From a virus: a DNA stretch of 36,087 nt. Below, piece after piece: positions 1 through 36,087 of the stretch. The DNA is taken from positions 1-36,087 of the IMG/VR virus record IMGVR_UViG_3300032222_000102. One strand, given 5' to 3'. How positions within the stretch are numbered: position 1 is the stretch's first letter; every line of letters starts with the position of its first letter. The translations under genes and the position numbers were made by a program. Under the pieces are notes generated by a model. It was not told the origin of the DNA. It saw nothing but the letters and a program-made list of their open reading frames with translations, and made no database searches.

Positions 1-123
1 GATGATGTATCATATGTTAATTGACCAGTTGCAGTACTATATCTTGCAGCGTTTGTACCAGCACTTGCCGATAAATTATATAAAAATATTTGACCATCAC
101 TTGTAATTTTCATTCTGTCGGAA
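1..123. repeat. Terminal direct repeat, left copy (circular assembly overlap)
   Basis: Bases 1-123 are identical to bases 35965-36087. The tail-fibre reading frame continues correctly when the copies are merged (4331 + 271 = 4602 nt = 1534 codons). The repeat is therefore best read as the overlap left when a circular or circularly permuted molecule is assembled as a linear contig. The unique length is then 35,964 bp. It lies inside a coding region, which argues against a physical terminal repeat such as a T7-type end. Confidence 0.95.
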
Positions 124-3100
124 AGACCTGTGCCAGTTCTAAATGTAATAAATCCAGAATCTATATACATTGCTGCATTAGCACTTGTTGTAGCATATTG
201 AGACCTTATTGTTGTTGTTGTATTACCTGCATTGTTATAATCTAAAGTTAATCCTACTCCTGATGATGAACCTCCGACTCTAACTTGTCCATTACCACCT
301 GAATTTGTTACTTGTAATAAAGTTAATGATGTACCAGTAATATTAGATACAACTGGTGTATTCGTACCCATCCCAATATTACCAGTTGACAATATTACCA
401 TTCTTGTAGTAGTAGTAGAACCATTTGTAGAAGTTAGAAAATCTATTTCTGGTAAAGAGTTTATTGTATCAACGGCAAGTATGTTTAATGAACCACCTTG
501 ATAGTTTATAGTCCCATATTGATTTGTACCAGAATTTCTTGTAAATCTTACACCATCTGTAAATATGTTATTGTTAGCACCTATAATATGCAATTGAGTT
601 AATGGAGTTGAATTATTTATACCAACATAACCACCACTACTATTTAATAATAAATTAGATGAATCATCTGCTAAAATTGATGCTCTTGCAGCACTACCAT
701 CACTACTTCTAAATCCAATACCGCCAGTATAAGGTAAATATAAATAGCCATTGTTTAAAGTGCCAAGAGCAGTCATATTACCAAGATTGATACCAGTAGT
801 TCCTAAACTTGATGTAAATCTACCAGTACCAGTAACATCAAAAGTATAAGTAGTGTTTGTATTTCCTATACCTACATTAGTTCCATTATCAAATATTAAG
901 CTATTACCTAACACCCCAGATGCAGTCCACTTAGAGATGTAATTAGTAGTACCACTACCACCGATACCTCCACCAGTTACAGATACCACCGCTTGTACTA
1001 TATCATTAGCTTGACAAGCAGTAGCTAAAACAAATGTAGTGCCATTAGTAGCAGTAAACTCATTAGATGCTAATTTAGATCCATTATAAAATACTGCTAA
1101 TTGGCCTAATGTATAGCCACCACTTACACTAAATGTAGTCTGGCCAGCAGTAGCAGTATAATCTTGAGTATTAGTAGCATTTACATTTGGTGTAATAGTC
1201 CAGCTTCTATCTGCACTTAAATCATATGCAGTGCCATTAATAGTCAAAGTTCTAGTAGTAGGCACACCACCTAATCCACTTAAAGTATATGTAGGTACAT
1301 TTAAAGTACCAGCACTAAATGTAGCAGATCCACTTGATCCAGTAGTAGTCAATGTGATAGCATTTTGCTTACCATTGAATGTACTCCAATCTGTGCTACT
1401 TAAAGCACCAGTAGTAGATGAGCTAGCTAATCCTAGAGATAATTGCTGCGTACTTAAACTTAAACCATTAGCAGTACCAATAGTTACGGCAGCATGTCTA
1501 GCAGCAGTATTTGCAGCTACATCTGTATTCGCACTTACTCTAGCCTCTGTATAATATAAATTTGTACCCTCTGTTAAATTTGTAGTAGTCTTACCACTAA
1601 ATGCAGTATCAAATCTTGCACTTGTATAGTATAAGTTTGTACCTTCTGTTAAGTTAGTAGTAGTCTTATTACCAAAGGCAGTATCAAATCTGCTTTGTGT
1701 ATAATATAAATTTGTACCCTCTGCAAGATCAGTAGTGCTTTTACCACTAAATGCAGTATTGAATCTTGTAGCAGTATAATATAAGTTTGTAGATCCCTCT
1801 GTAACTTGATCAGTATTATAGTCACCACTTTGCGCAGTCACTGCACCAGTACGGCTAAATACACTGCTTACACCAGTTACTAAAGATCCTATATTTCCGT
1901 TTAATTTTTGTATTGCAGTTAAGATGCTATCACTTGAACTGATCGTACCAGCACCGCTAGTATAGCCAGTTAATGTAGATCCTATTGATCTAGCATTTGT
2001 AAAGTATAGATTACCACTCTCAGCTATATCATTTGTAACCAAACTCACTGCACCAGTATAGCCATTCACTGAGCTTACTGCATCTGTGTTATCTACTTTA
2101 TCCCATGTAGATCCGTTAAAGATGATCCAGTCACCCACTTTCCAATCTGTGATACCATTAATGTTAGTGCTACCAGCTACAGATACGATATAATAATATC
2201 CTTTTGTACCTACGCTAGATGTAATGCTAGGACTATTAGTACTTGCATTCCATGTACCCTGGTACATCACTCCACCTACTAAAGCACTAATCTGATTTTG
2301 CACCTTACCAAATGCACCTAAAATAGTATCAGTATCTGCAATAGTACCACCACCGCTTAAATTTAAACCAGTTAGGACCTTACCAGTCACTGCACTATTA
2401 ACTAATGATGGATTAGGATATGTACCACTTAATTCACCGCCAGCAAATATGCCACTGATTGTAGTCAAGTAAGTATTTGTATCATAGCTGATCACACCAG
2501 CAGTAGATTTAACAAAGCCAGTGCCATTTAGAGCATCTTGCTTAGCTTTAAATGTATTATAGTCTGTGCTTGTAAGTAAACCAGTAGTACCACTTGCAGC
2601 AGTAGGGATCGCAGTCTGAGATGCAGCAGTCACTAATCCTTTTGCATTCACTACGATAGTAGGCACATTTGTGCTATTACCATATGATCCTACATTAGTA
2701 TTCACATTCTTTAAAGTCAATGTAGTATCTGATCCAGTATTACCAGTACCAGTTACATCACCTATAAAGCTCAAAGCACCAGATGGAATAAAAACTGCAT
2801 CTGTAGTCACACTTGTAACTAAGCCTTTTGCATTTACAGAGATAACTGGGATAGCAGTAGATGATCCAAAAGTACCTACATTTGGATTCACATTCTTTAA
2901 AGTTAAGCTAGTACCAGATCCGATTACGGCAGCAGTGCCACCGCTCACATCCATATCTCCACTTGATAAATTACCAAATGTCAAAGCAGACTGCTTATTA
3001 TTAAATGTATTAAAATCTGTGCTAGATAAATATCCATTTGTGATAGTAGATGATTGTGTAATAGATAATGTCCTATTATCACTCAAATCACCTCCACCAT

Positions 3101-4331
3101 TTAAAGGTGCAGTAGTGCTAATTGTTCTAGCACTTGTTACTGGTGTATAACCTAATAAAGTATTAATAGTAGCTGATTTCCATAAATTAGTAGCAGTATC
3201 TCTATATAATACCCCCTTATTAATGTATGGCAAAGGTGCTACATCATGTAACTCCTCAAGCTCATATCCATTCTGTACCTTAGCATATATCTTACCATTA
3301 TTTTGGTGAGCATACTCTACATATCCTACCACCACCATATGATATGGAGCGGATGGCTTAATGTTTGTGATTGCACCAGCAGTAGTAGGACTTAAATATA
3401 ATACATCTCCATCTACCCATGTTTCACCCTGGAGAGATCCAGTTGTATTAATTCCTTTTACTTGACCTAAAATAGTGATAAAACCTTCTTGATTATTTGC
3501 TATATTCTCAGTAACTATACCTAAAGTATCTGCACTATTATTATCATTATTTGCTTGAGCTAATTGTACTGCCAATCTTTGGCCCTGGGCAGATGATATT
3601 TTCACCACTCTATATTGGCTCTCTAACAGATCAGCGCCAGTCTTATTCACCACTCTAGCCACCATCTCCTGGCCTACTTGTAAGGTAACATTACCACCCT
3701 TTAAGCCTACATCTAATGTACCATCTGTATCATTCCATCTCATCACACCAACACCAGCAGCGCCAGTAGGTGTCTGATCAAATGTAACTTGCCCAGCACT
3801 TATTTGATGCTCTCCTAAATTAACATTTCCAGTAGCACCAGTATATGGCACTTTAGCATCTAGAGATGCTTGAGTAGGGATAACATACCCACTAGTCAAA
3901 CTAAAAATACCACTAGCGCTAGAATATTCCATACCAGTTATATTCTCGCTAATAGCTGCTCTTGATCTAGCATTAGTGTAGTATTGATTGATCAATCCCT
4001 CACCTACTTGATCAGTATTATAATCACCAGTCTGCGCAGTTACCACACCAGTTCTACCAAAAACGCTAGTTACTGGATTATCTTCTGTGCTATTTACCCA
4101 CGCTGATCCGTTATATTTTAACACTTGCCCACTTACTGGACTAGCAATAGTTACTCCGCTTAATTGATCTAAAGTATAATCACCCTCTGTAGCTACCACA
4201 TTACCTACTCTACCAAATACTGAGTACACATTATTAGGCAAAGGATAAGCACCAGTTTGAGCTATTATATTTACAATGTCATTAGTGACATTTATCTCTA
4301 TAATCTGATCTGCTACATTTATTATTTCCAT
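1..4331 (-). CDS. Giant tail fibre with S74 autochaperone end (N-terminal part; gene crosses the window ends)
   Basis: An open minus-strand frame starts at the ATG at 4329-4331 (TAATG overlap with the upstream gene) and runs off the left edge. Through the 123-bp overlap it continues in frame to the stop at 35694, giving 1533 aa. I translated it by eye. It has no stop and is rich in Gly, Ser, Thr and Asn. Near the N-terminus it carries collar-type motifs of the form SVFGRxGxVxAxxGDYxxDQ (around 4195-4250 and 4010-4080, again around 1800-1880). Four 25-aa units containing TNLYYTxxRF follow at about 1549-1850. Phage side fibres commonly have such repeats and trimerise. The C-terminus is an S74 chaperone domain. 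Role: receptor-binding fibre at the end of the structural operon. Product call is strong; receptor unknown. Confidence 0.9.
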   Translation of the reverse strand, partial: MEIINVADQIIEINVTNDIVNIIAQTGAYPLPNNVYSVFGRVGNVVATEGDYTLDQLSGVTIASPVSGQVLKYNGSAWVNSTEDNPVTSVFGRTGVVTAQTGDYNTDQVGEGLINQYYTNARSRAAISENITGMEYSSASGIFSLTSGYVIPTQASLDAKVPYTGATGNVNLGEHQISAGQVTFDQTPTGAAGVGVMRWNDTDGTLDVGLKGGNVTLQVGQEMVARVVNKTGADLLESQYRVVKISSAQGQRLAVQLAQANNDNNSADTLGIVTENIANNQEGFITILGQVKGINTTGSLQGETWVDGDVLYLSPTTAGAITNIKPSAPYHMVVVGYVEYAHQNNGKIYAKVQNGYELEELHDVAPLPYINKGVLYRDTATNLWKSATINTLLGYTPVTSARTISTTAPLNGGGDLSDNRTLSITQSSTITNGYLSSTDFNTFNNKQSALTFGNLSSGDMDVSGGTAAVIGSGTSLTLKNVNPNVGTFGSSTAIPVISVNAKGLVTSVTTDAVFIPSGALSFIGDVTGTGNTGSDTTLTLKNVNTNVGSYGNSTNVPTIVVNAKGLVTAASQTAIPTAASGTTGLLTSTDYNTFKAKQDALNGTGFVKSTAGVISYDTNTYLTTISGIFAGGELSGTYPNPSLVNSAVTGKVLTGLNLSGGGTIADTDTILGAFGKVQNQISALVGGVMYQGTWNASTNSPSITSSVGTKGYYYIVSVAGSTNINGITDWKVGDWIIFNGSTWDKVDNTDAVSSVNGYTGAVSLVTNDIAESGNLYFTNARSIGSTLTGYTSGAGTISSSDSILTAIQKLNGNIGSLVTGVSSVFSRTGAVTAQSGDYNTDQVTEGSTNLYYTATRFNTAFSGKSTTDLAEGTNLYYTQSRFDTAFGNKTTTNLTEGTNLYYTSARFDTAFSGKTTTNLTEGTNLYYTEARVSANTDVAANTAARHAAVTIGTANGLSLSTQQLSLGLASSSTTGALSSTDWSTFNGKQNAITLTTTGSSGSATFSAGTLNVPTYTLSGLGGVPTTRTLTINGTAYDLSADRSWTITPNVNATNTQDYTATAGQTTFSVSGGYTLGQLAVFYNGSKLASNEFTATNGTTFVLATACQANDIVQAVVSVTGGGIGGSGTTNYISKWTASGVLGNSLIFDNGTNVGIGNTNTTYTFDVTGTGRFTSSLGTTGINLGNMTALGTLNNGYLYLPYTGGIGFRSSDGSAARASILADDSSNLLLNSSGGYVGINNSTPLTQLHIIGANNNIFTDGVRFTRNSGTNQYGTINYQGGSLNILAVDTINSLPEIDFLTSTNGSTTTTRMVILSTGNIGMGTNTPVVSNITGTSLTLLQVTNSGGNGQVRVGGSSSGVGLTLDYNNAGNTTTTIRSQYATTSANAAMYIDSGFITFRTGTGLSDRMKITSDGQIFLYNLSASAGTNAARYSTATGQLTYDTS
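1549..1850 (-). repeat. Four tandem 75-bp units within the tail fibre gene
   Basis: The same AT-rich segment (plus strand gtataatataaatttgtacc or close) recurs with starts at about 1549, 1624, 1699 and 1774, an exact 75-bp (25-aa) period. Each unit encodes a TNLYYTxxRF block followed by a Thr-rich spacer. Such blocks are typical of trimeric fibre shafts. They may allow length change by recombination. Confidence 0.8.
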
Positions 4332-13050: not shown

Positions 13051-16000
13051 TTAACAATCTCCGCACGCTTCTATAGGTACTGCACTATTTGCTGATCCGT
13101 TTCTCCTAAACTTCCTATATTTAAATACACCGCTTATTCTTTGATTTAACCAGAATTCATCATCTGGTAGCATATCTGCCCAAACTGCACTAGGCATACT
13201 AATTACTTGAGTACAATCGCACATATTAGTACCTACTACTTGTACTGAAATTGCACCATACTCACCACCAGCGCAAACCTCTGCTGATCCTATAAGAGAT
13301 GCTCTAGCAGTAAAAGTAGCAGTAGTATAGCCACATGATGGTGAATTAGCCTGGATCAATGCACCTACACCAGTAAAGCCATAAGTAGAAGAGCATGGAT
13401 TATTATCTATAGTTCTTTGATGTAGATCATATCCCATACATATAGTATTTGATCCATCATTAACATAGTTAGGTGCAGTATTACATGGTACACTTGATGG
13501 CGCAGTATTGCCTACATTAGTACCATTTACTTGGTAATTTAAGTAAGTAGCTGAGCATATATTCAAATCTCTATATACTATATAATTCGTACATCCTATA
13601 CAAGTAGTAAAGTTTTGATTAACCCAGTTAGCACTATAATTACAAGAATCATCTACTGGTGCAGTTGTACCCTGGTCCTCACCACCTACATAGTAATGCA
13701 AGTAAGTAAGAGAGCATGGATTAGTATTTCTATAAACGATATACTCAGTACATCCCCAGCATGTAGTGTAACCCTGGCTAGTTAAGATAGGTGATCCATT
13801 ACAATCACCACTAGCTGGCGCAGTATTACCCACATTCACACCACCTCTAAAATAATTATTATAAGTAGCAGAGCATGGATTAGTATCTCTATAAACTAAG
13901 TAATTTTGACATGCATAGCAAGTATAATAACCCTGGCTTGTTAAGTTTGCAGTATAATTACATGCACCATTGCTAGGAGCAGTATTACCTACATTAATAT
14001 TATTTACTCTGTAATTATTATAAGTAGCAGAGCATGGATTAGTGTCTCTATACACTAAATAAGTCACACACCCAGAGCATGTATTATACCCCTGGCTAGT
14101 CCATTGAGCAGTAGTTACACACGCACCATTTGATGGCGCAGTATTGCCTACATTCACTCCATTCACTCTATAATTATTATAGCTTGGAGAGCATGGATTA
14201 GTGTCTCTATAAACTAAGTATGTATTACAATTTGAGCATGTATTATACCCCTGGCTAACCCAGTTAGGTACAAAATTACAAGTGCTTTCTAATGGTGCAG
14301 TATTACCTACATTCACTCCGTTTACTCTGTAATTATTATAGGTAGGAGAGCATACATTAGTATCTCTATACACTAAAGAATCCACACAATTATAACAGCT
14401 ATAATAACTTTGGCTGGTCCATTGTGCAGCAGTATTACAAGCTCCGTTTGTAGGAGGTGTAAGGCCCACATTTACCCCATTAACTCTATACTCATTAAAA
14501 GTAGCAGAGTAAGGATTCACATCCCTATAAACTATGTAAGTATTACAAGATACACAAGTATTATAGTTTTGAGATGCAAATATAGGAGTACTATCATAAG
14601 TAGCTATATTTTTCTCTATTACTCTTAATAACTCAACCTTTGTAAGATCATTAGCCTCTGGTGTAAAATCTACCACTTTGCTTAATCTGTATAAGCCTCC
14701 ATCTATATGCACATATCTACCAAAGTCAAGATCGAAAATATCTTGATCTGTAAGCTTAAAATATCCAGTTAATAATCTACTATCCTTATCTGTGATCTCA
14801 GCTAAATAAGTAGAGTAGTATGTATTAAATAAGTTATTACTTAGATCACCAGTAGCCAATGTAAAATAAAGCTGCTGAGGCGCACCAAAGTTAATATCTT
14901 GAGTAGGAGCATCTGGATCATCTAAATGTCCAGCATAAAGATAATCTGTTCTAGATGTCAAGCTTGTAGCTCCGTTATAAATAGTCCATGATGTAACACC
15001 AGTTTGATATGATGTCTGCATGATACGCACATTATGATCCATTGGATCCTCTTTAGTATTCTCATTAGACTTTTTATAAATCGCTGGAAATACTTTATCT
15101 TGACCAGTTGCACCATATAATACAGATGCACTAAAGATAACCTCTACTTGTTCAGTATCCTTAACAAATTCAAGACCATTATCGTAGATCCTATCACCAT
15201 ATCCCTCACTATATTTTTTACGATATTCTTCATTGTAGTAGTCGTTATCTTGTTTATATTTTAAATTGTAATATCTAGCATTTATCTCACTCATTGGCTT
15301 TTGCTTGATCACCTTCTCTCTATCAAGCTTATTACTCCAATCTACCTGGCTACCATCCCAGAAATCCACATAAGGTGAGATAATTAAATGATTAGTTTTA
15401 TATTTATCCTCAGTCACCAAAAGATTAAACATCTTCAATATAGAGATAAAGAAATCTTTTTGAAATATACCTTTAGGAATAGTATTATTGATCTGTAATG
15501 ATTCACCATAGTTAATAGGCACTAAACTACTTGTAGTAGTCGTAATATCAAAAGCACCATCTAGCACCTCCATCTGATAGCTTACTGATCCGCTCCATTC
15601 TACAGATACTTGCAAAGTATCGCCATTATTTAATGTATTATTTGTAACTGATAAAGTAGCACCAAAATAGTTAGTGCTAAAACCAGTACCAATAAAATAA
15701 CTAGCTATGGTAGTGCCATTCTTTTTAAGCTTTATAGTAGCTGGATTACCTAGCACCCAAATACCATTTAATCTAAAATTTAAATTTACTGCTTTAGATG
15801 TACCAGTATAAGTAAATAAAGTATTTGAGCTGGTCAAAGTAAAACTACCTAATGTAGTAGCTACAAAGCTTAAATTAAAAGCAGATCCAGATGCAGCATA
15901 TTGCTTTAGCTCTGGTGTAGCTTCTAATTGAGTATTACTATTCTTTTGCAGAATAGCCTGGTTATTTGGTATAATTAATCTCTTGAATTTTGCCTCGCTG

Positions 16001-19176: not shown

Positions 19177-20343
19177 TTATATAACATGGTATTTACCTAC
19201 CAGCTTATGATCGTTTCTGCATTTATTTGCCAATGCCAAAGCTATCACGCAGTCATCATGGAATCCCTGGGGAGCTGAGTACCTAACCCCAGTAGGAGTG
19301 AAGGTGTACTCAAATACCTCAAGCTCACCCTTTATAGTCCCTTCTGGAAAGCTTATCTGCTTTGTATGGATGGCACTAGCCAAACCTTCTAAAAGCTGCT
19401 GCTTACTCACGCTGGTAAACTTAAAGCCATGCATTTGGTTAAACTTCTTTTGTAGATCCTCTACTATGGCATCACCCACACCAGTACTATCAATTACAAT
19501 AGGCACATTCTTAGGCAGCCTTAAAATAGTCTCTTTTGTTTGCATCCAGTCTTTTTGGAATCTATCAAAATGCACCACATTGCCATTCTTATCTAGTCCT
19601 ATGATGACAGACCAGTCCACAGACTTAGCCAGGTCAATTCCGTAATAAGCAGCCACCCCAGATGATGATCTGGTACAAGCCTGGATAAATTCAGATCCAA
19701 ACGGATTAGAGGCATTCTCCATAGGATCTGCAAGATACTCTTGCTTAAATACCACACTAGGGAGCTGAGCTTTGGCAGCATCAATCTCAGATGGATCAAT
19801 GAAAGGATTATCATAAGTGCTAAATTTAAATGATTCCCAGTCTGGCTCACCACCACGCATAAATAGGCTATAAAAGTAATTTTTGCCTCTAGGTGTGCTT
19901 AAAAAGATAGCCTTTCCTTTATAGTCTGTTAGTGTAGGTCTAATACTATTATTCCAGCCTTCCTCTAGATTAGAGATAAAGCTGGCCTCATCAATGATCA
20001 CCAGGTGGAACTTCAAACCTCTCAGCGCATCCAATCTCTCACCAGTAAAGAATCTAATAGATCCACCAGTAACAAAATTGATCATTAGATCAGTCTCATT
20101 CTTTTTGTATATCTTCTCTGGTAGTAGTTTGCATATTTCTTTAAAGAATGTCTTACCTAGCTGATAGGTAGGTGTGATATATGCAATGCTCTGTTTATGC
20201 AGTGCGCACTCTATTGATACATTCTGGCTAATTAATGATTTCCCAAATCTTCTACCACACATCATCACTCTGAATCTGGCATCACTATCTAATACTGCCT
20301 TTTGTGCCTGGTGTGGCTTAGGTAACTTAATCTGGAGATTCAT
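19177..20343 (-). CDS. terL: Terminase large subunit
   Basis: The 388-aa product has an N-terminal ATPase with Walker A GRRFGKS (residues 30-36), Walker B LVIIDEA (114-120) and motif III LSTPRG (149-153). The C-terminal nuclease shows GIDLAKSVDW (Asp237), IVIDSTGVGD (Asp285) and HDD (363-364), the acidic residues expected for the RNase H-like packaging nuclease. It drives DNA into the prohead through the portal and cuts the concatemer. The start overlaps the small-subunit gene by 17 nt. Length is at the short end for TerL (usually 400-550 aa), but all key motifs are present. Confidence 0.95.
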   Translation of the reverse strand: MNLQIKLPKPHQAQKAVLDSDARFRVMMCGRRFGKSLISQNVSIECALHKQSIAYITPTYQLGKTFFKEICKLLPEKIYKKNETDLMINFVTGGSIRFFTGERLDALRGLKFHLVIIDEASFISNLEEGWNNSIRPTLTDYKGKAIFLSTPRGKNYFYSLFMRGGEPDWESFKFSTYDNPFIDPSEIDAAKAQLPSVVFKQEYLADPMENASNPFGSEFIQACTRSSSGVAAYYGIDLAKSVDWSVIIGLDKNGNVVHFDRFQKDWMQTKETILRLPKNVPIVIDSTGVGDAIVEDLQKKFNQMHGFKFTSVSKQQLLEGLASAIHTKQISFPEGTIKGELEVFEYTFTPTGVRYSAPQGFHDDCVIALALANKCRNDHKLVGKYHVI

Positions 20344-20761
20344 ACTTGATTGTGATAGTATCTATGTTTGTATTTTCAGTTACTGCTCTATCAGTCATGC
20401 CTAAAGCATTCTTTGCATAGAAGATAGCCTTACCTTCATTCGCTACTATATCTGTAGCCAATGCCTTAAACATATCTACGATCTTATTGCAGATGTCATG
20501 ATAAGGATGCGTAGGATCTTGTCTCACTTTCCAAAGGCCCATCTTAGTGTAAAATTCAAACTCATGCTTTCTTAGCCAGTGATGTAAGAAATAATCTATC
20601 GTTGGCACAAACCTATCTCTAATAGATACGATCTTACCAGATCCAGTAGCCACTTCTTTAGTACCACTCATGCAATCATCACAATATGCATAGGCTAGAT
20701 CCATTAGCTTCTCTTCATCTATATCCTTAAATTTTCTTGTTACATGTTCTCTTACTTCCAT
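20327..20761 (-). CDS. terS: Terminase small subunit
   Basis: The 144-aa helical product precedes and overlaps the large subunit. Its N-terminus has a helical segment ending in LAYAYCDDCMSG. The middle (DYFLHHWLRKHEFEFYTK) and the KNALGMTDRAVTENTNID tail before the stop are like small terminases of Bacteroidota phages, where a helical core is followed by a strand that meets TerL. It recognises phage DNA to begin packaging. The gene overlaps the upstream glycosyltransferase by 10 nt, so it is read from the same message. Confidence 0.75.
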   Translation of the reverse strand: MEVREHVTRKFKDIDEEKLMDLAYAYCDDCMSGTKEVATGSGKIVSIRDRFVPTIDYFLHHWLRKHEFEFYTKMGLWKVRQDPTHPYHDICNKIVDMFKALATDIVANEGKAIFYAKNALGMTDRAVTENTNIDTITIKYESPD

Positions 20762-21351
20762 ATCTTTAAATTTTTTGATCCGTTTCTATAAGCAGTAATA
20801 TCATCCACATGCATCTGCCAGTACTTATTCACCAGCTCACCTTTATCCCAGCCATACTCATTACCAGTTGCATGTGATCCGATATGCTCTGCCATGCAGT
20901 CTATCACATAGTATGTATAAAATCCAGCTAGGTTAGCACGCTCACAATAATCCAGGTCTATTGGCCCATATGGGAACATCTGCTCATTGAATATACCAAT
21001 CTTATCTACCACCTTCATGGATAGTAACCAGTTTGATATGATATGCTCGCTCTGTGCAGTATATCTCACATTGTCTAAGCTGCTTGCTACGATCCCAGCA
21101 AATGGGTAGCTTTTTAATGCCTCCACCTTTTTAGCTAGCCAGTTCTCTGGCTCTTTGATGTCATTCGCTAGATAGGCTATCGCATCATACCCATCTGCAC
21201 CAGCTATGTCTATGGCTTCATTTAATGCATTAGCTATGCCTTCTCTATTGATCAGTACATAGTCTGCCACATAACCAGCGCTCTTAATGTTCTCTGCTAA
21301 TATATCTAGCGGCCTATTGCCATATACCAGACATGCTATTAGTACTTTCAT
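20752..21351 (-). CDS. GT-A fold (family 2-like) glycosyltransferase
   Basis: The 199-aa product has the start of a GT-A nucleotide-sugar fold (MKVLIACLVYGNRPLDILAE), a strand ending in AYLANDI (Asn63-Asp64, at the position of the DxD region) and a GPIDLDYCERANLAGFY block (129-145) typical of GT2 enzymes. A GSHATGNEYGW loop follows near residue 160. It probably transfers a sugar from a nucleotide-activated donor. It is shorter than most GT2 enzymes (about 250-300 aa), so it may be a minimal form. Its ATG overlaps the end of the acyltransferase gene by 4 nt. Substrate unknown: either a host surface glycan or a virion protein. Confidence 0.75.
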   Translation of the reverse strand: MKVLIACLVYGNRPLDILAENIKSAGYVADYVLINREGIANALNEAIDIAGADGYDAIAYLANDIKEPENWLAKKVEALKSYPFAGIVASSLDNVRYTAQSEHIISNWLLSMKVVDKIGIFNEQMFPYGPIDLDYCERANLAGFYTYYVIDCMAEHIGSHATGNEYGWDKGELVNKYWQMHVDDITAYRNGSKNLKIWK

Positions 21352-21836
21352 TTTACCTCATTTGGGCCTAGCCACTTTGCTGGATTGCCAGCATATTTTT
21401 GGTAAGGCTTAGTTATTAATTTTTTAGTTACCACTGCACCCATACCGATCATGCAGCCAGCAGCTATTATTTGTCTCTGGTGGATGACTGCATTTAATCC
21501 AATATTGCATTTAGATCCTATGATAGCATGGCCTCCAATTTTTGCACCACATGATATAGTGGTATATTTACCTATCCATGCATCATGGCCTACATGAGAA
21601 TGTTTTAGCATCCATACACTATGATCTAAAATTGTATTATTCTCTGTACCAGAATCAATAGTGACATGTCCAGTTAATACGCAATTACTAGATATAATAA
21701 CTCTACCACTTACTTTATAATCCCAAAAGCCTCTATGCTCTCCTGGCGCACCTATAATGCAATATGGCCCAATATAGATATTATCTCCTAATTCAACATT
21801 GTCGTAAATAATCGCAGTCGGATGTATATAATTCAT
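21348..21836 (-). CDS. LpxA-like left-handed beta-helix acyltransferase
   Basis: The 162-aa product is built of hexapeptide repeats ([LIV]-G-x4 turns), starting MNYIHPTAIIYDNVELGDNI and running through about residue 135. The HSHVGHDAWIG block (79-89) puts His84-Asp85 where LpxA has its catalytic His125-Asp126, and VIHQ (117-120) matches the LpxA VHQ site. LpxA proper is about 260 aa and has a helical C-terminal domain, which is lacking here. An O- or N-acyltransferase acting on a sugar nucleotide or glycan is the best reading. It is flanked by glycosyltransferases and coupled to both neighbours by 4-nt overlaps. Confidence 0.8.
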   Translation of the reverse strand: MNYIHPTAIIYDNVELGDNIYIGPYCIIGAPGEHRGFWDYKVSGRVIISSNCVLTGHVTIDSGTENNTILDHSVWMLKHSHVGHDAWIGKYTTISCGAKIGGHAIIGSKCNIGLNAVIHQRQIIAAGCMIGMGAVVTKKLITKPYQKYAGNPAKWLGPNEVK

Positions 21837-22075
21837 AGCGCTATTTGATCTTTAAATGTTTTATAGACATTCACTAAGAATGTACCCACGCATGCGCCAC
21901 ATCTGTTATTATAAGTATAGATAGGATCTACCAGCTTATAAATTTCTAGCAGCTCATTCTGGATCTCATGCGTAAATCCTACCAGCTCACCGCTTTTAAT
22001 AAATAGATCATAAAAATGCTTATGCTTTAATAAGGTCTGCATATGCTTCTCTTCTAAGTTTACTGATATGCTCAT
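21833..22075 (-). CDS. Small conserved phage protein with CxxC
   Basis: Starting at the ATG at 22073-22075, the product is 80 aa: mostly helical, with HKHFYDLFIKSGELVG in the middle and NNRCGACVGTFLVNVYK near the end. The Cys-Gly-Ala-Cys pair could bind metal or form a disulfide. A later ATG at 22042 would give 69 aa with a smaller overlap with the upstream glycosyltransferase. I recognise the form as a small protein found in Bacteroidota phages, without known function. It lies inside the sugar cassette and may only be a passenger there. Confidence 0.6.
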   Translation of the reverse strand: MSISVNLEEKHMQTLLKHKHFYDLFIKSGELVGFTHEIQNELLEIYKLVDPIYTYNNRCGACVGTFLVNVYKTFKDQIAL

Positions 22076-23135
22076 AGTTGTATTTTGTTTTTGCCCAGTT
22101 GTAAAGATCATTACCCATCTTGATCCTTTCCTCTGGATTGTTAATTAAATATGTTAAATGTTTGTACCAATCTTTTTGGCTCTCCACCCATAGCACTGGC
22201 GCATCTGCATCCATGCTATATGGCTGCACCTTACTCACTATGCATGGTATTCTCTTACTTGCTGCCTCTAATATCTTTAGATTGCTCTTGCATGCATGCC
22301 AGTCACTTTCTTGCAAAGGTATGAGCATAATGTCTGCCTCTTCAAAATGGCTCATGTATGCATTTGGCAAAGTGCTTGCAAGCTTTTTATTTGGTAGTCT
22401 GCCACCATCTGTAAATAAGCTCCATAGCTGATCCCAGTACTGCTTACTCACTGGATCACTATCTGTGTAGCCACCTAGCACCATCTCTATATTATCAAAG
22501 TGATGCAGCCTCTTTACTGGACCTTTCAATAGCTTGATGTCATCCATATGCGTAGATCCACCAGCCCAGAATATTCTCACCTTATCACTAGGCTTCTTAT
22601 CCTCTGTGTATTGATGCTGGCCCAATGGTATGCAGTTAGGTAGGATTACCACATTATCATGATACTGCCTAAGCTTCTGCGCTAGCCTTTCATTAGTGCA
22701 TGTCACCAGATCAGCATAGTTAATGTTATTGATCACTCGCTCTCTTTGAGGTGCGTAGAATTTATGTAATGGATGATTATATGGTAGATCCCAATCATCA
22801 TCCATATCCATCACTATTTTAAAGTGCTTCTTTGTCTCATCCCAGTTCTGATCAAATGGAGAGAATCTGTTATACAATAGTATATCAAATTGCCTTTCTT
22901 GTAGGATCTCTTCTGTAGGTACATTACATACATGATTATATGAATCTGGTAAGAATGCTAATGGTAATAGCACCCTATGCCATCCACATCCGCTCACCTT
23001 CTGCGTAATGCCCAGTACTTGTATTGTGTTATTTTCCCTGGCCACGATATGCTTTTGGTTTTGGTGTATGTTTGTTATAACTCTTTTTTGGTGATCCACA
23101 TTTGCGCTTTCCAAATGTTTGCTTTTTTGAATCAT
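22020..23135 (-). CDS. GT-B fold (family 4-like) glycosyltransferase
   Basis: The 371-aa product shows a two-domain GT-B layout: an N-terminal half with FDILLYNRFSPF and VMDMDDDW, a linker near residue 180, and a C-terminal domain with RIFWAGGSTHMDD and KSNLKILEAASKRIPCI (Glu290 in the expected EX7E region). The C-terminus ends in a helix (KTKYNYEHISKLRREAY). It probably transfers a sugar from a nucleotide donor. The first ATG at 23135 overlaps the 41-aa basic gene by 107 nt, which is unusual. The true start may be a non-ATG codon near 23030, just before the conserved ITQKVSGCGW. Role in the sugar cassette is inferred. Confidence 0.75.
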   Translation of the reverse strand: MIQKSKHLESANVDHQKRVITNIHQNQKHIVARENNTIQVLGITQKVSGCGWHRVLLPLAFLPDSYNHVCNVPTEEILQERQFDILLYNRFSPFDQNWDETKKHFKIVMDMDDDWDLPYNHPLHKFYAPQRERVINNINYADLVTCTNERLAQKLRQYHDNVVILPNCIPLGQHQYTEDKKPSDKVRIFWAGGSTHMDDIKLLKGPVKRLHHFDNIEMVLGGYTDSDPVSKQYWDQLWSLFTDGGRLPNKKLASTLPNAYMSHFEEADIMLIPLQESDWHACKSNLKILEAASKRIPCIVSKVQPYSMDADAPVLWVESQKDWYKHLTYLINNPEERIKMGNDLYNWAKTKYNYEHISKLRREAYADLIKA

Positions 23136-23645: not shown

Positions 23646-24194
23646 TTATAAAGTTTTAGTTATACAAATATGTTTTAATTCTGCTCTGGTCTTTCTGATA
23701 ATATCTTTAACATGCTTCTCTGGTATATTATAAAACTCAGCTACTTTCTTGCATGATCTTACCTCCACATACTTAGTAAATAATATAGCCTCATGTGCAT
23801 GCATCTCATCCTCAGCATGCTTATCATATAATCTCTGGCTTGCTATGGTAGCAAATTTAGGATTTAATTCTGGTAATTTAGTTTGACATCTTAAATATTC
23901 TATAGCCTTATCATAATCAGATTGCCTAAATTTTTTATAGAATCTGCTGGTAGAACTAAATGCCATATTAGTAATAATCTTAATAGAAAAACCTATCAAG
24001 CCATTAGAATCATAAATAGTCTTAATCTTATCACAATCCATGTTAAGTAGCGCTAATGCCATCTCTTGCTTTAGATCATCTTGCAGATCCAGAGGATGCA
24101 CAGACTTGATCAGCCTACATATTTCTGGGTGATTATAGATAAATTCTATCATCTCATTGCATGTACTCGGTTTATTTTTTTCTATCTTATTCAT
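23646..24194 (-). CDS. Sigma-factor-like protein
   Basis: From the ATG at 24192-24194 (a TTG two codons earlier is the other option) the product is 182 aa. The first half resembles sigma region 2 (LQDDLKQEMALALLNMD, then GFSIKIITNMAFSS with STSRFYKKFR). The last 40 residues hold a helix-turn-helix like sigma region 4 (SCKKVAEFYNIPEKHVKDII). It may direct host RNA polymerase to late phage promoters. It is the first gene after the repeat-rich gap, and one of the three 13-bp repeats lies in its start region, so it may regulate itself. A terminase-type or other HTH protein is the alternative. Confidence 0.5.
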   Translation of the reverse strand: MNKIEKNKPSTCNEMIEFIYNHPEICRLIKSVHPLDLQDDLKQEMALALLNMDCDKIKTIYDSNGLIGFSIKIITNMAFSSTSRFYKKFRQSDYDKAIEYLRCQTKLPELNPKFATIASQRLYDKHAEDEMHAHEAILFTKYVEVRSCKKVAEFYNIPEKHVKDIIRKTRAELKHICITKTL

Positions 24195-24394
24195 TATCAA
24201 TCATTTAACCTATATTTTGTACTAATGTACTCACTTAACCCTAAAAAAATTGAACTAATAAAAACTTTATCTCTTAAAAAAATGAGGACCAACAAAAAAT
24301 CTACTTAAATTAAGTACACCGCGTACAGACCTTATAACTAATTGATTATCATTTAGTTTGGATGTACTCGGTTTGTACTCAATGTACTCGGTTT
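24161..24394. repeat. Iteron-like 13-bp repeats and palindromes (candidate origin or operator)
   Basis: ATGTACTCGGTTT occurs exactly three times, at 24161-24173, 24362-24374 and 24382-24394. A partial copy (ATGTACTCACTT) begins at 24225. The core GTACTC is also present at 24375 and 24424, giving six copies in about 265 bp. There is a perfect palindrome ACTTAA-A-TTAAGT at 24303-24315 and an imperfect one GTACACCGCGTAC at 24314-24326. The 178 bases 24201-24378 hold no gene I can support and include an AT-rich stretch at 24241-24300. No exact DnaA box (TTATCCACA) or TAnnTTTG box is visible. Origin or operator role is inference. Confidence 0.7.
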
Positions 24395-34559: not shown

Positions 34560-35687
34560 TTAGGATTTATTCTCTAATGCTGATACTTTAGCAGAAAGTT
34601 CTTGTACGGCTTTAAGTAATATGATATTTAATTTTTCATATTCAACACCAGCTAATTTTTTAGTACCATCTTCTTTAATATCATAAAATACAAAATCTGG
34701 ATGAACTGCCTCAACCTCATCTGCTATTAATCCATAATCTTGGTTTTCATATATTTCATCTGTATAATTACCATAATTATCTTTTTTACGCTTATTAAAC
34801 TTAACTGGATTTAAATTATATATCCAAGATACATCTATTAAACTTTCTATGTTCTTTTTTGATTCTCTAACAGATGCATTATAACCTAAAATACCAGCAT
34901 CATTTGAATAAATTGCTCTTAATGTTCCACCCATACCATAATTATAAGGTGAATTAGCAGCAGAGCCAGTTAAAATAATTCCATCATTTCTAACATAAAA
35001 TAAATCTGTTACTGCATTATCAATAAGAAAGCTATAATTTGCACTTGTTTGATTAATACCTCTAATTTTTAAAGATATATTTGTAGCACCAGAAGTTTGA
35101 TTAATTAATACATTACCCCCACTTGTAATACGCATTCTTTCGGAGCCACCTAAAGTAAATGTTAATGGTCCATATCCAGTACCAGTATAATAACTTAAGT
35201 TAAAATCAGCTCCATCTTGACCATTAGTTCCTGGAACGATGTTAAAAGATGCACCACCATTATCTGTATAAGTAAATTGTGCACCACCAGCAACAGTTAA
35301 TTTTCTTCCACTTGCTGGACTACTTGTACCAATTCCTACATTACCAGAAGTAGAAATCATAAATGGAACTGTTCTTGTGCCACTTAAGAAGTCACCAGTA
35401 TATTTTGCAATCCAAAATTCTCCAGTATTTCTTCTACCAATACCCCATCCGTTAGCAGCAGAGCCACTATTAGAAAATCCTAATAAAGCATCTGAACCAG
35501 CAGTAGTTGAAATTAATTCTCCATAAGCATCAATTGTATTAGTTATATTTAGTTTGCCACTAAATCTACCAGTACCAGTAACTTCAAACTTATAGCTACC
35601 AGAAGGAGAGCCACCTATACCTATGTTATTAGATGCGTCTTGCCATAAACCGTTCGTTAGTAAGCCAGTTGAGAAAGTTTTTCCCAT
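34560..35687 (-). CDS. Second tail fibre with S74 autochaperone domain
   Basis: The 375-aa product opens with a short shaft of GIGTSS-type strands (NIGIGGSPSG, then NVGIGTSSPASG) and ends in a peptidase S74 intramolecular chaperone (about residues 272-375). Ser272 and Lys277 keep the spacing of the S74 Ser-Lys pair. GLIADEVEAVHPDFVFY and the final heptads (ILLKAVQELSAKVSALE) complete the domain. S74 domains help trimer folding and then cut themselves off. It follows the giant fibre by 6 bases and could be a separate tip or side fibre. No enzyme domain is visible in the shaft. Confidence 0.85.
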   Translation of the reverse strand: MGKTFSTGLLTNGLWQDASNNIGIGGSPSGSYKFEVTGTGRFSGKLNITNTIDAYGELISTTAGSDALLGFSNSGSAANGWGIGRRNTGEFWIAKYTGDFLSGTRTVPFMISTSGNVGIGTSSPASGRKLTVAGGAQFTYTDNGGASFNIVPGTNGQDGADFNLSYYTGTGYGPLTFTLGGSERMRITSGGNVLINQTSGATNISLKIRGINQTSANYSFLIDNAVTDLFYVRNDGIILTGSAANSPYNYGMGGTLRAIYSNDAGILGYNASVRESKKNIESLIDVSWIYNLNPVKFNKRKKDNYGNYTDEIYENQDYGLIADEVEAVHPDFVFYDIKEDGTKKLAGVEYEKLNIILLKAVQELSAKVSALENKS

Positions 35688-35693
35688 AATATT

Positions 35694-36087
35694 TTATTTT
35701 ACTAATTGTTTTAATGTATCTACTTCTGCCTTTAATTCTTGGATTGCTTTGACTAAGACTGATACAAATCTATCATAAGAAACAGAGTTAGGTAAGCCAT
35801 CTTTATCCAATCCAACAAGTTCTGGTATTACTTCATAAACCTCCTCTGCTATTAATCCAATATCTGTTCTTTCATCTTCTTTATATTCAAACATAGTTGA
35901 ACGCAATTTCATAACATCATTTAATCCATAAGCTGAATCTCTAATATTATTTTTATAACGAGCAGATGATGTATCATATGTTAATTGACCAGTTGCAGTA
36001 CTATATCTTGCAGCGTTTGTACCAGCACTTGCCGATAAATTATATAAAAATATTTGACCATCACTTGTAATTTTCATTCTGTCGGAA
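35694..36087 (-). CDS. Giant tail fibre, C-terminal S74 part (continuation of the gene at 1-4331)
   Basis: This is the end of the 1533-aa fibre, joined through the terminal overlap. It holds MKITSDGQIFLYN, then the S74 domain with SSARYKNNI (Ser1443 and Lys1448 of the joined protein, spaced as in the S74 Ser-Lys pair), DIGLIAEEVYEVIPELVG and a closing coiled coil (LVKAIQELKAEVDTLKQL). An ATG at 36077 is internal (matching base 113), not a start. Self-cleavage before Ser1443 would leave a shaft of about 1442 aa. Confidence 0.9.
   Translation of the reverse strand, partial: SDRMKITSDGQIFLYNLSASAGTNAARYSTATGQLTYDTSSARYKNNIRDSAYGLNDVMKLRSTMFEYKEDERTDIGLIAEEVYEVIPELVGLDKDGLPNSVSYDRFVSVLVKAIQELKAEVDTLKQLVK
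35965..36087. repeat. Terminal direct repeat, right copy (circular assembly overlap)
   Basis: Identical over 123 bases to positions 1-123. See the left copy: it marks where a circular map was opened inside the tail fibre gene. Confidence 0.95.

Follow-up and report, generated by a model that had tools for sequence, protein, structure and literature searches.

Glycans on phage particles have been reported from mycobacteriophages, in which the available excerpts of PMC12619734 (citing Freeman et al. 2023) and PMC11256854 place them on the capsid and the tail tube, and the phages Che8 and Rita encode glycosyltransferases that are described as thought to act on structural proteins. In addition, the available excerpt of PMC10551542 presents A197 of the archaeal virus STIV as an essential viral glycosyltransferase with a GT-A fold, whose possible substrate is the glycosylated coat protein. 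In the IMG/VR record IMGVR_UViG_3300032222_000102, whose full 36,087 bases are referred to here as the window, three predicted carbohydrate enzymes are encoded directly before the genes of the terminase small and large subunits (TerS and TerL): a GT-B fold glycosyltransferase (hereafter GT-B), a left-handed beta-helix acyltransferase and a GT-A fold glycosyltransferase (GT-A). Together with the gene of a small CxxC protein, they fill positions 20752-23135, and we refer to them as the cassette. We suggest that the cassette works in the host cytoplasm, where it would assemble and cap a short glycan whose carrier is most likely a virion protein, and we rate this proposal a little short of an even chance.

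Like Che8 and Rita, the phage of the window has its own glycosyltransferases; the mycobacteriophage system, as far as the excerpts describe it, differs in its hosts and in that glycans have been reported for it, whereas the cassette is known from genes alone. GT-A resembles STIV A197, a chain of similar length (191 residues), in fold (TM-score 0.57/0.59, 17% identity), but A197 comes from an archaeal virus, no sequence family link between it and GT-A was found, and the excerpt of PMC10551542 mentions no partner acyltransferase. GT-B is 31% identical to gp164 of phage phi92, which lies with two GT-A-type neighbours in the run gp163-gp166. However, phi92 is a 149-kb E. coli phage with four transferases and with no acyltransferase or terminase within the 11 kb examined, and the excerpts of the BASEL papers (PMC8594841, PMC11990801) do not mention its glycosyltransferases. 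The Flavobacterium phage immuto likewise encodes glycosyltransferases, a methyltransferase and a 'pilin glycosylation protein' 28% identical to the acyltransferase, but its genome, of 160 kb, also carries sugar-nucleotide genes (transaminases and an epimerase). The Flavobacterium phage paper PMC7077304 added nothing on this point. A literature search on glycosylated phage virions, Flavobacterium phages and Bacteroidetes/hexapeptide/terminase found no paper on the phage group of the window.

Identification of the three enzymes

All open reading frames (ORFs) of the cassette are intact and overlap in front of terS with the CxxC gene between them, as the initial annotation had described. From 24200 to 19177 on the minus strand, the order is a sigma-factor-like gene, a gene for 80 amino acids (aa), a 79-aa membrane protein, GT-B, CxxC protein, acyltransferase, GT-A, TerS and TerL. 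The overlaps amount to 92 nucleotides (nt) for GT-B/CxxC, 4 for CxxC/acyltransferase, 4 for acyltransferase/GT-A, 10 for GT-A/TerS and 17 for TerS/TerL, and the membrane protein gene falls outside the cassette. The enzyme names proposed in that annotation were also borne out, through fold models for the two glycosyltransferases and through profile matches for the acyltransferase. Conserved residues were evaluated in sets of distinct but related sequences that included the window, with genes cut by a contig end dropped; the putative catalytic residues proved invariant in the homologs of all three enzymes.

For GT-B, PHROG 7162 'glycosyltransferase' was matched at E 7e-61, and the model, with a predicted local distance difference test (pLDDT) value of 88.5, showed the two-domain GT-B fold, with MshA, GlgM, BshA and PglA as the top PDB folds (E 2e-13 to 1e-11). 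Because the best Pfam score, obtained among Glyco_trans_1_2 and related GT4 models, was 21.7 bits and thus under the curated cut-off of 25, we name the protein GT4-like rather than GT4; as a GT4-like enzyme it is probably retaining. Residues D110, D112, D113, K283 and E290 are invariant in 59/59 sequences, and by analogy we take K283 and E290 to be the Lys and Glu of the nucleotide-sugar site. In a tblastn search, GT-B had matches in 140 phage records, including 104 that are named as Escherichia phages; the identities were 30.7-33.2% among the 40 matches listed, which included phi92 and a phAPEC8-type phage.

The AlphaFold2 model of GT-A (pLDDT 92.1) has the GT-A fold and gave 287 PDB matches at E <0.001, among them the fucosyltransferase WrtF, the polypeptide GalNAc-T2 and STIV A197. 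The sequence evidence for this protein is weak (Pfam GT2 at E 0.002, 18.5 bits vs. a cut-off of 23.3; PHROG 2456 at E 1e-4), and it is named GT2-like, not GT2, because the Pfam score is under the cut-off. In the viral library, the model was matched best by a protein from an uncultured phage that is named 'glycosyltransferase 2-like' and is 35% identical, and tblastn at E 1e-3 found no GT-A in the phage records. N63, D64, D132, R138 and H156 are invariant in 69/69 sequences, a set in which the L097 protein has an odd N-terminus; by analogy, N63-D64 would presumably be the acidic metal/nucleotide motif and D132 the catalytic Asp. The mechanism of this GT2-like enzyme is probably inverting.

The acyltransferase matched Pfam Hexapep repeats at E 3e-15, and its family profile matched PDB 8e62, a 189-aa protein that its depositors named 'UDP-N-acetylglucosamine acyltransferase', at E 4e-58 and LpxA entries from E 4e-30. 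LpxA, the UDP-N-acetylglucosamine (UDP-GlcNAc) O-acyltransferase, carries a helical C-terminal domain. The phage enzyme shares with LpxA the left-handed beta-helix and the aligned HD and HQ sites: H84-D85 align with the HD of the LpxA entries, and H84, D85, H119 and Q120 are invariant in 63/63 sequences. All of its 162 aa align to the beta-helix, and the listed UDP-GlcNAc O-acyltransferase chains measure 257-305 aa; unlike LpxA, it looks like a bare beta-helix without the helical domain. The initial annotation was correct about the His-Asp pair and the absent domain but not about a VHQ site, since residues 118-120 read I-H-Q in the window and V-H-Q in some relatives. Because the helical domain of LpxA is absent, the group transferred is probably acetyl. 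Sugar acetyltransferases of the PglD/NeuD kind have an N-terminal Rossmann-like domain that precedes the beta-helix; the phage enzyme shows no such domain, as the 8e62 match begins at residue 3 of the acyltransferase and the PglD chain 3bss matches only with its residues 111-197.

Linkage of the enzymes in related phages

Scanning IMG/VR with TerL yielded 113 confirmed relatives, and 79 loci were retained from these; 50 of the 79, with a TerL identity >55% and at least 4 kb upstream, were informative, some of them being near-identical. GT-B was present in 49/50 informative loci, the acyltransferase in 45/50, GT-A in 46/50 and all three in 45/50, a linkage that exceeds chance, and the three enzymes belong to the core of this phage group. 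Four informative loci (L095, L096, L118 and L121) kept GT-B and had neither the acyltransferase nor GT-A, and the same two genes were likewise absent together in L094 and L011, which stand outside the 50-locus count. The remaining exception, L097, has GT-A; its upstream part (L097:1-4000) reads like portal/capsid genes of another phage, so that the contig is possibly chimaeric. None of the three enzymes was present in another locus that has 4 kb upstream but a TerL identity of only 33%. We conclude that the cassette is real and conserved, and that it is probably active. The claim that such a set is not ordinary proved weaker than it had been put: the set is core in its group, phi92 has its four-transferase run, and the sugar cluster of immuto, which includes an acetyltransferase, is larger.

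The gene order from the sigma-like gene to terL was the same in 31/35 close loci, and a sigma-like gene lay upstream of TerL in 48/50 informative loci. In L148, a contig from a Chitinophagaceae metagenome-assembled genome (MAG), the set is kept in the order sigma-like, membrane protein, CxxC, acyltransferase, GT-A, GT-B. In L096, L100 and L121, a methyltransferase-like protein of 175-180 aa replaces the acyltransferase and GT-A; Pfam Methyltransf_23 was above the cut-off for the L096 protein and below it for that of L100, and the L121 protein reads the same as the latter. In L023 and L109, the acyltransferase and GT-A are separated by a protein of 195 aa, with a Pfam methyltransferase match below the cut-off in L023 and no match in L109. 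In six loci on Pollutibacter and Mucilaginibacter contigs (L149-L153 and L155; TerL identity 52-57%), presumed to be prophages, neither tblastn nor profiles run on the ORFs found the three enzymes in the flanking regions, which were searched to a distance of about 10 kb in both directions; L148 was matched by all three profiles in the same search.

A divergent acyltransferase allele in the window

The acyltransferase of the window is 74-75% identical to those of relatives whose flanking genes are 96-99% identical. Six steps of 60 nt within the gene (the inner stretch in Table 1) were 52-85% identical to L058, L061 and L062, while the adjoining steps on both sides were 93-100% identical; farther out, GT-A of L062 is also divergent. 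The inner stretch thus looks as if it has been replaced by a divergent allele, for which no donor was found. We surveyed 177 TerL pairs at 97% identity or higher, which are not independent of each other. The acyltransferase fell below 85% in 5/149 pairs, four of which are pairs with the window and the fifth, by inference, is window-L060 (75%); the corresponding figures were 28/164 for GT-A, 28/137 for CxxC, 8/131 for GT-B and 0/161 for TerS. With so few close pairs affected, the idea that the acyltransferase is a general hot spot of variation was rejected.

Compared with three near relatives, 27/39 ORFs of the window were at least 93% identical in all three. The ORFs that clearly diverged in all three were two fibre-tip ORFs (32-44%), the acyltransferase and DUF3310 (63-81%, partly over half the length). 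The 80-aa gene was 38% identical in one relative, absent from another and 92% identical over 61% of its length in the remaining one, the alignments of the large fibre covered just 25%, 31% and 80% of the protein, and several other genes diverged in one or two of the relatives. The fibre tips, at 34560-36077 and 3-4331 of the window, point to a recent fibre exchange. The four phages compared hold three acyltransferase alleles, one of which is common to two phages with different fibre genes, and a strict coupling of the allele to the tail fibre was rejected because of this sharing.

Proposed function and alternative explanations

In the proposed pathway, GT-B would use a nucleotide sugar of the host to glycosylate a side chain on a structural protein, GT-A would attach a second sugar, and the beta-helix enzyme would acylate a sugar either before or after its transfer. 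In relatives with methyltransferase-like genes, the last steps would be replaced or supplemented, resulting in a differently capped glycan. We infer the enzyme activities, the sugar, the acceptor, the order of the steps and their timing, with late expression being suggested only by the position of the genes.

The main reason that we favour a virion target is that the acyltransferase recurs beside transferases or a terminase, which is suggestive. In L026, a phage contig of 179 kb, a GT2 protein (Pfam E 1e-12) and a PHROG 4417 protein come before an acyltransferase that is 43% identical, and this group is directly preceded by a 504-aa protein in which Ser-Thr dipeptides form a very long run (L026:4755-6269) and which is a candidate for heavy glycosylation. 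In L028, a 42% identical relative is encoded about 1 kb ahead of TerL. In addition, GT-B as the core is kept while the capping genes are lost or exchanged among relatives, the gene run leads directly into terS/terL, and the fold matches include the protein glycosyltransferases GalNAc-T2 and Gtf3 as well as STIV A197. The linkage of the three genes, which holds in the shuffled L148, and their invariant active sites also count in favour. A PHROGs scan of 40 window proteins, many of which matched nothing, turned up no lipid-carrier, flippase or polymerase family. For the tail fibre, named as a target in the initial annotation, the observation is limited to a Ser+Thr content of 25%.

Several points weigh against glycosylation of a virion protein. 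First, the acceptor, the donor and the glycan are all deduced from the genes. Second, protein-glycosyltransferase folds are few among the >200 matches at E <0.001 and do not set the acceptor. Third, only terS/terL adjoin the cassette, with no capsid or fibre gene. Fourth, L027 reads the same as L026, so that this parallel represents one phage type, and the L026 neighbours tested, the 504-aa protein included, had no PHROG match, the virion-gene region there being recognised by eye only. Moreover, the collinearity of a compact genome would likewise hold neighbours together, and the acyltransferase diverges where the fibre tips diverge, which a role at the host surface fits at least as well.

If the glycan is on the virion, virion glycosylation would extend from mycobacteriophages to small phages of probable Bacteroidota hosts, and the cassette would offer a compact three-gene study system with natural variants that have lost or swapped the cap. 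It is conceivable, though in our view doubtful, that these phages wear a short sugar coat whose cap is switched by exchange of the acyltransferase allele or by methyltransferase replacement, independently of the backbone enzymes, which would amount to serotype switching of the phage.

A serious alternative, though less probable than a virion target, is that the enzymes alter the host lipopolysaccharide or capsule during infection and so block progeny or other phages from binding infected cells and debris. Such kinds of enzymes are typical of surface-glycan pathways, and a WrtF-like GT-A fold (WrtF was solved with an acetylated trisaccharide acceptor) together with a PglA-like GT-B fold favours this explanation; however, the 40 proteins scanned included none from a flippase, polymerase, ligase or undecaprenyl enzyme family. 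The joint divergence of the two fibre-tip ORFs, the acyltransferase and DUF3310 would be expected if the enzyme answers receptor chemistry, but fibre and acyltransferase are not strictly coupled, since G001 and G003 differ in their fibre genes and share a 98.8% identical acyltransferase. The placement with packaging genes suggests late expression, which would leave little time for a change of the surface, and the six presumed prophages, in which a lasting change would pay, are without the set. In temperate phages, the gtr cassette consists of a multi-span flippase and a bactoprenol transferase in an integrase-bearing phage; no such serotype-conversion system was seen in the window, with only the 79-aa protein with two hydrophobic stretches nearby and no flippase/bactoprenol-transferase family or integrase among the 40 proteins in PHROGs. 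If the host surface is nevertheless the target, a small phage would remodel host glycans with dedicated enzymes, and either target would explain the strict retention of these genes in genomes of about 33-36 kb.

It is also improbable that the genes act in separate pathways and owe their linkage solely to a compact, collinear genome: the single block order in 31/35 close loci and the small neighbour genes that travel along would agree with this, but L148 shuffles the order and yet keeps the set, and the acyltransferase and GT-A are jointly absent from the four informative loci that have GT-B only, as well as from L094 and L011. Hypermodification of phage DNA bases by the glycosyltransferases is very unlikely, for although DNA-modification genes precede terS, next to the sugar genes, in some relatives, the window gave no thymidylate synthase-type match (vs. 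9/14 control genomes), no Tet/JBP match (0/14 controls and two related records matched) and no match to TAGT (Tet-associated glycosyltransferase), neither glycosyltransferase matches TAGT in Pfam, and the acyltransferase would have no evident role.

Origin of the enzymes

In 195 genomes of the Pollutibacter soli family, strict searches matched GT-B in one genome (E 1e-15), GT-A in none (1e-15) and the acyltransferase in none (1e-40), while the L148 genome, used as the positive control, was matched by all three profiles. The lone GT-B match, located at one end of a contig of 27 kb, is probably phage too, because its neighbours are a sigma-like gene and a gene resembling that of the membrane protein. 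Weaker matches in bacterial genomes (GT-B 6e-4, GT-A about 1e-7, acyltransferase 1e-23) were as expected for broad enzyme folds. Because no more than one of the 195 bacterial genomes matched strictly, the enzymes are, as judged from these searches, phage families, and the sampled host family is not a recent source of them. A DNA similarity search with the cassette among 50,697 phage records gave 0 matches.

Small Cys-motif proteins

The initial annotation had placed the two-span membrane protein at the head of the cassette. P39, C42, C45 and W49 of this protein are invariant in 48/48 sequences, and a weak Pfam match to DUF1360 was found in 2/22 members (best E 0.008). However, its family profile also matched ORFs near the terminase in three Mucilaginibacter regions without any cassette enzyme, namely L151, L153 and L155 (E 3e-9 to 8e-7). 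Because it is present where the enzymes are absent, it appears to be a general neighbour and is probably not a part of the cassette.

C71 and C74 of the CxxC protein are conserved in 49/49 sequences and in 19/19 of a wider set that places CxxC on either side of GT-B. The protein stays with GT-B in loci that lost the acyltransferase and GT-A, and it may belong with GT-B. Among the compared regions, its profile matched only L148, the one bearing the enzymes; a CxxC-like gene is visible by eye in L155, although tblastn at E 1e-3 detected neither this nor the membrane protein gene there. A PHROGs search with the CxxC family returned single weak matches only.

Genome context, host group and neighbouring genes

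Bases 1-123 of the record are identical to bases 35965-36087, and because of this 123-bp terminal repeat the genome looks complete and circularly assembled (about 35,964 bases). Features of the gene run are collected in Table 1.

Table 1. Positions of the cassette genes and their neighbours in the window
Feature	Position	Strand	Evidence or remark
Sigma-factor-like gene (context)	23646..24200	-	Pfam Sigma70_r4 E 0.002, below cut-off
Membrane protein, KPFxCxxCxxxW motif, 79 aa	23159..23398	-	Two hydrophobic stretches
GT-B fold glycosyltransferase, GT4-like, 371 aa	22020..23135	-	PHROG 7162, fold model
CxxC protein, 92 aa	21833..22111	-	C71, C74 conserved
Left-handed beta-helix (hexapeptide) acyltransferase, LpxA-like core, 162 aa	21348..21836	-	Pfam Hexapep, PDB 8e62
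Divergent inner stretch of acyltransferase gene	21419..21778	-	Borders to nearest 60 nt
GT-A fold glycosyltransferase, GT2-like, 199 aa	20752..21351	-	Fold model, invariant residues
Terminase small subunit TerS (context)	20327..20761	-	PHROG 606 E 0.017, weak; adjoins TerL
Terminase large subunit TerL (context)	19177..20343	-	PHROG 2 E 5e-46, Pfam Terminase_6N

The host group of these phages is probably Bacteroidota. Among 28 loci in named genomes, the best TerL relatives came from a Chitinophagaceae MAG (61%), Pollutibacter soli (56-57%) and Mucilaginibacter (52-54%), and the remaining ones were a MAG labelled Sedimentibacter (47%) and 19 loci in mixed phyla (23-38%). A Shine-Dalgarno-like motif was present at only 3/35 start sites examined, which fits a Bacteroidota host.

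In some relatives, DNA-modification genes occupy the slot between the sugar genes and TerS, so that this slot gains genes, while the core enzymes are also present without them. Tet/JBP-type dioxygenase genes lie between GT-A and TerS in L119 (7690-8604) and L056 (9990-10862), with a ParB-like gene and, in L056, an FkbM methyltransferase gene near, and DNA hypermodification is possible in these relatives. TAGT matches were found in the slot at L148:8871-9605 and, outside it, at bases 2549-3187 of the L023 record, with no Tet/JBP match in the same records; Tet/JBP and TAGT each occurred in 2/19 records tested. In L099 (7317-9633), a stretch between GT-A and TerS contains a 7-deazaguanine-type run of QueC-, QueD-, QueE- and FolE-like genes, as recognised by eye. 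Finally, a repeat family with a period of 159 nt (53 aa) was observed at 13499-14565 of the window, inside the gene for a 1197-aa protein.

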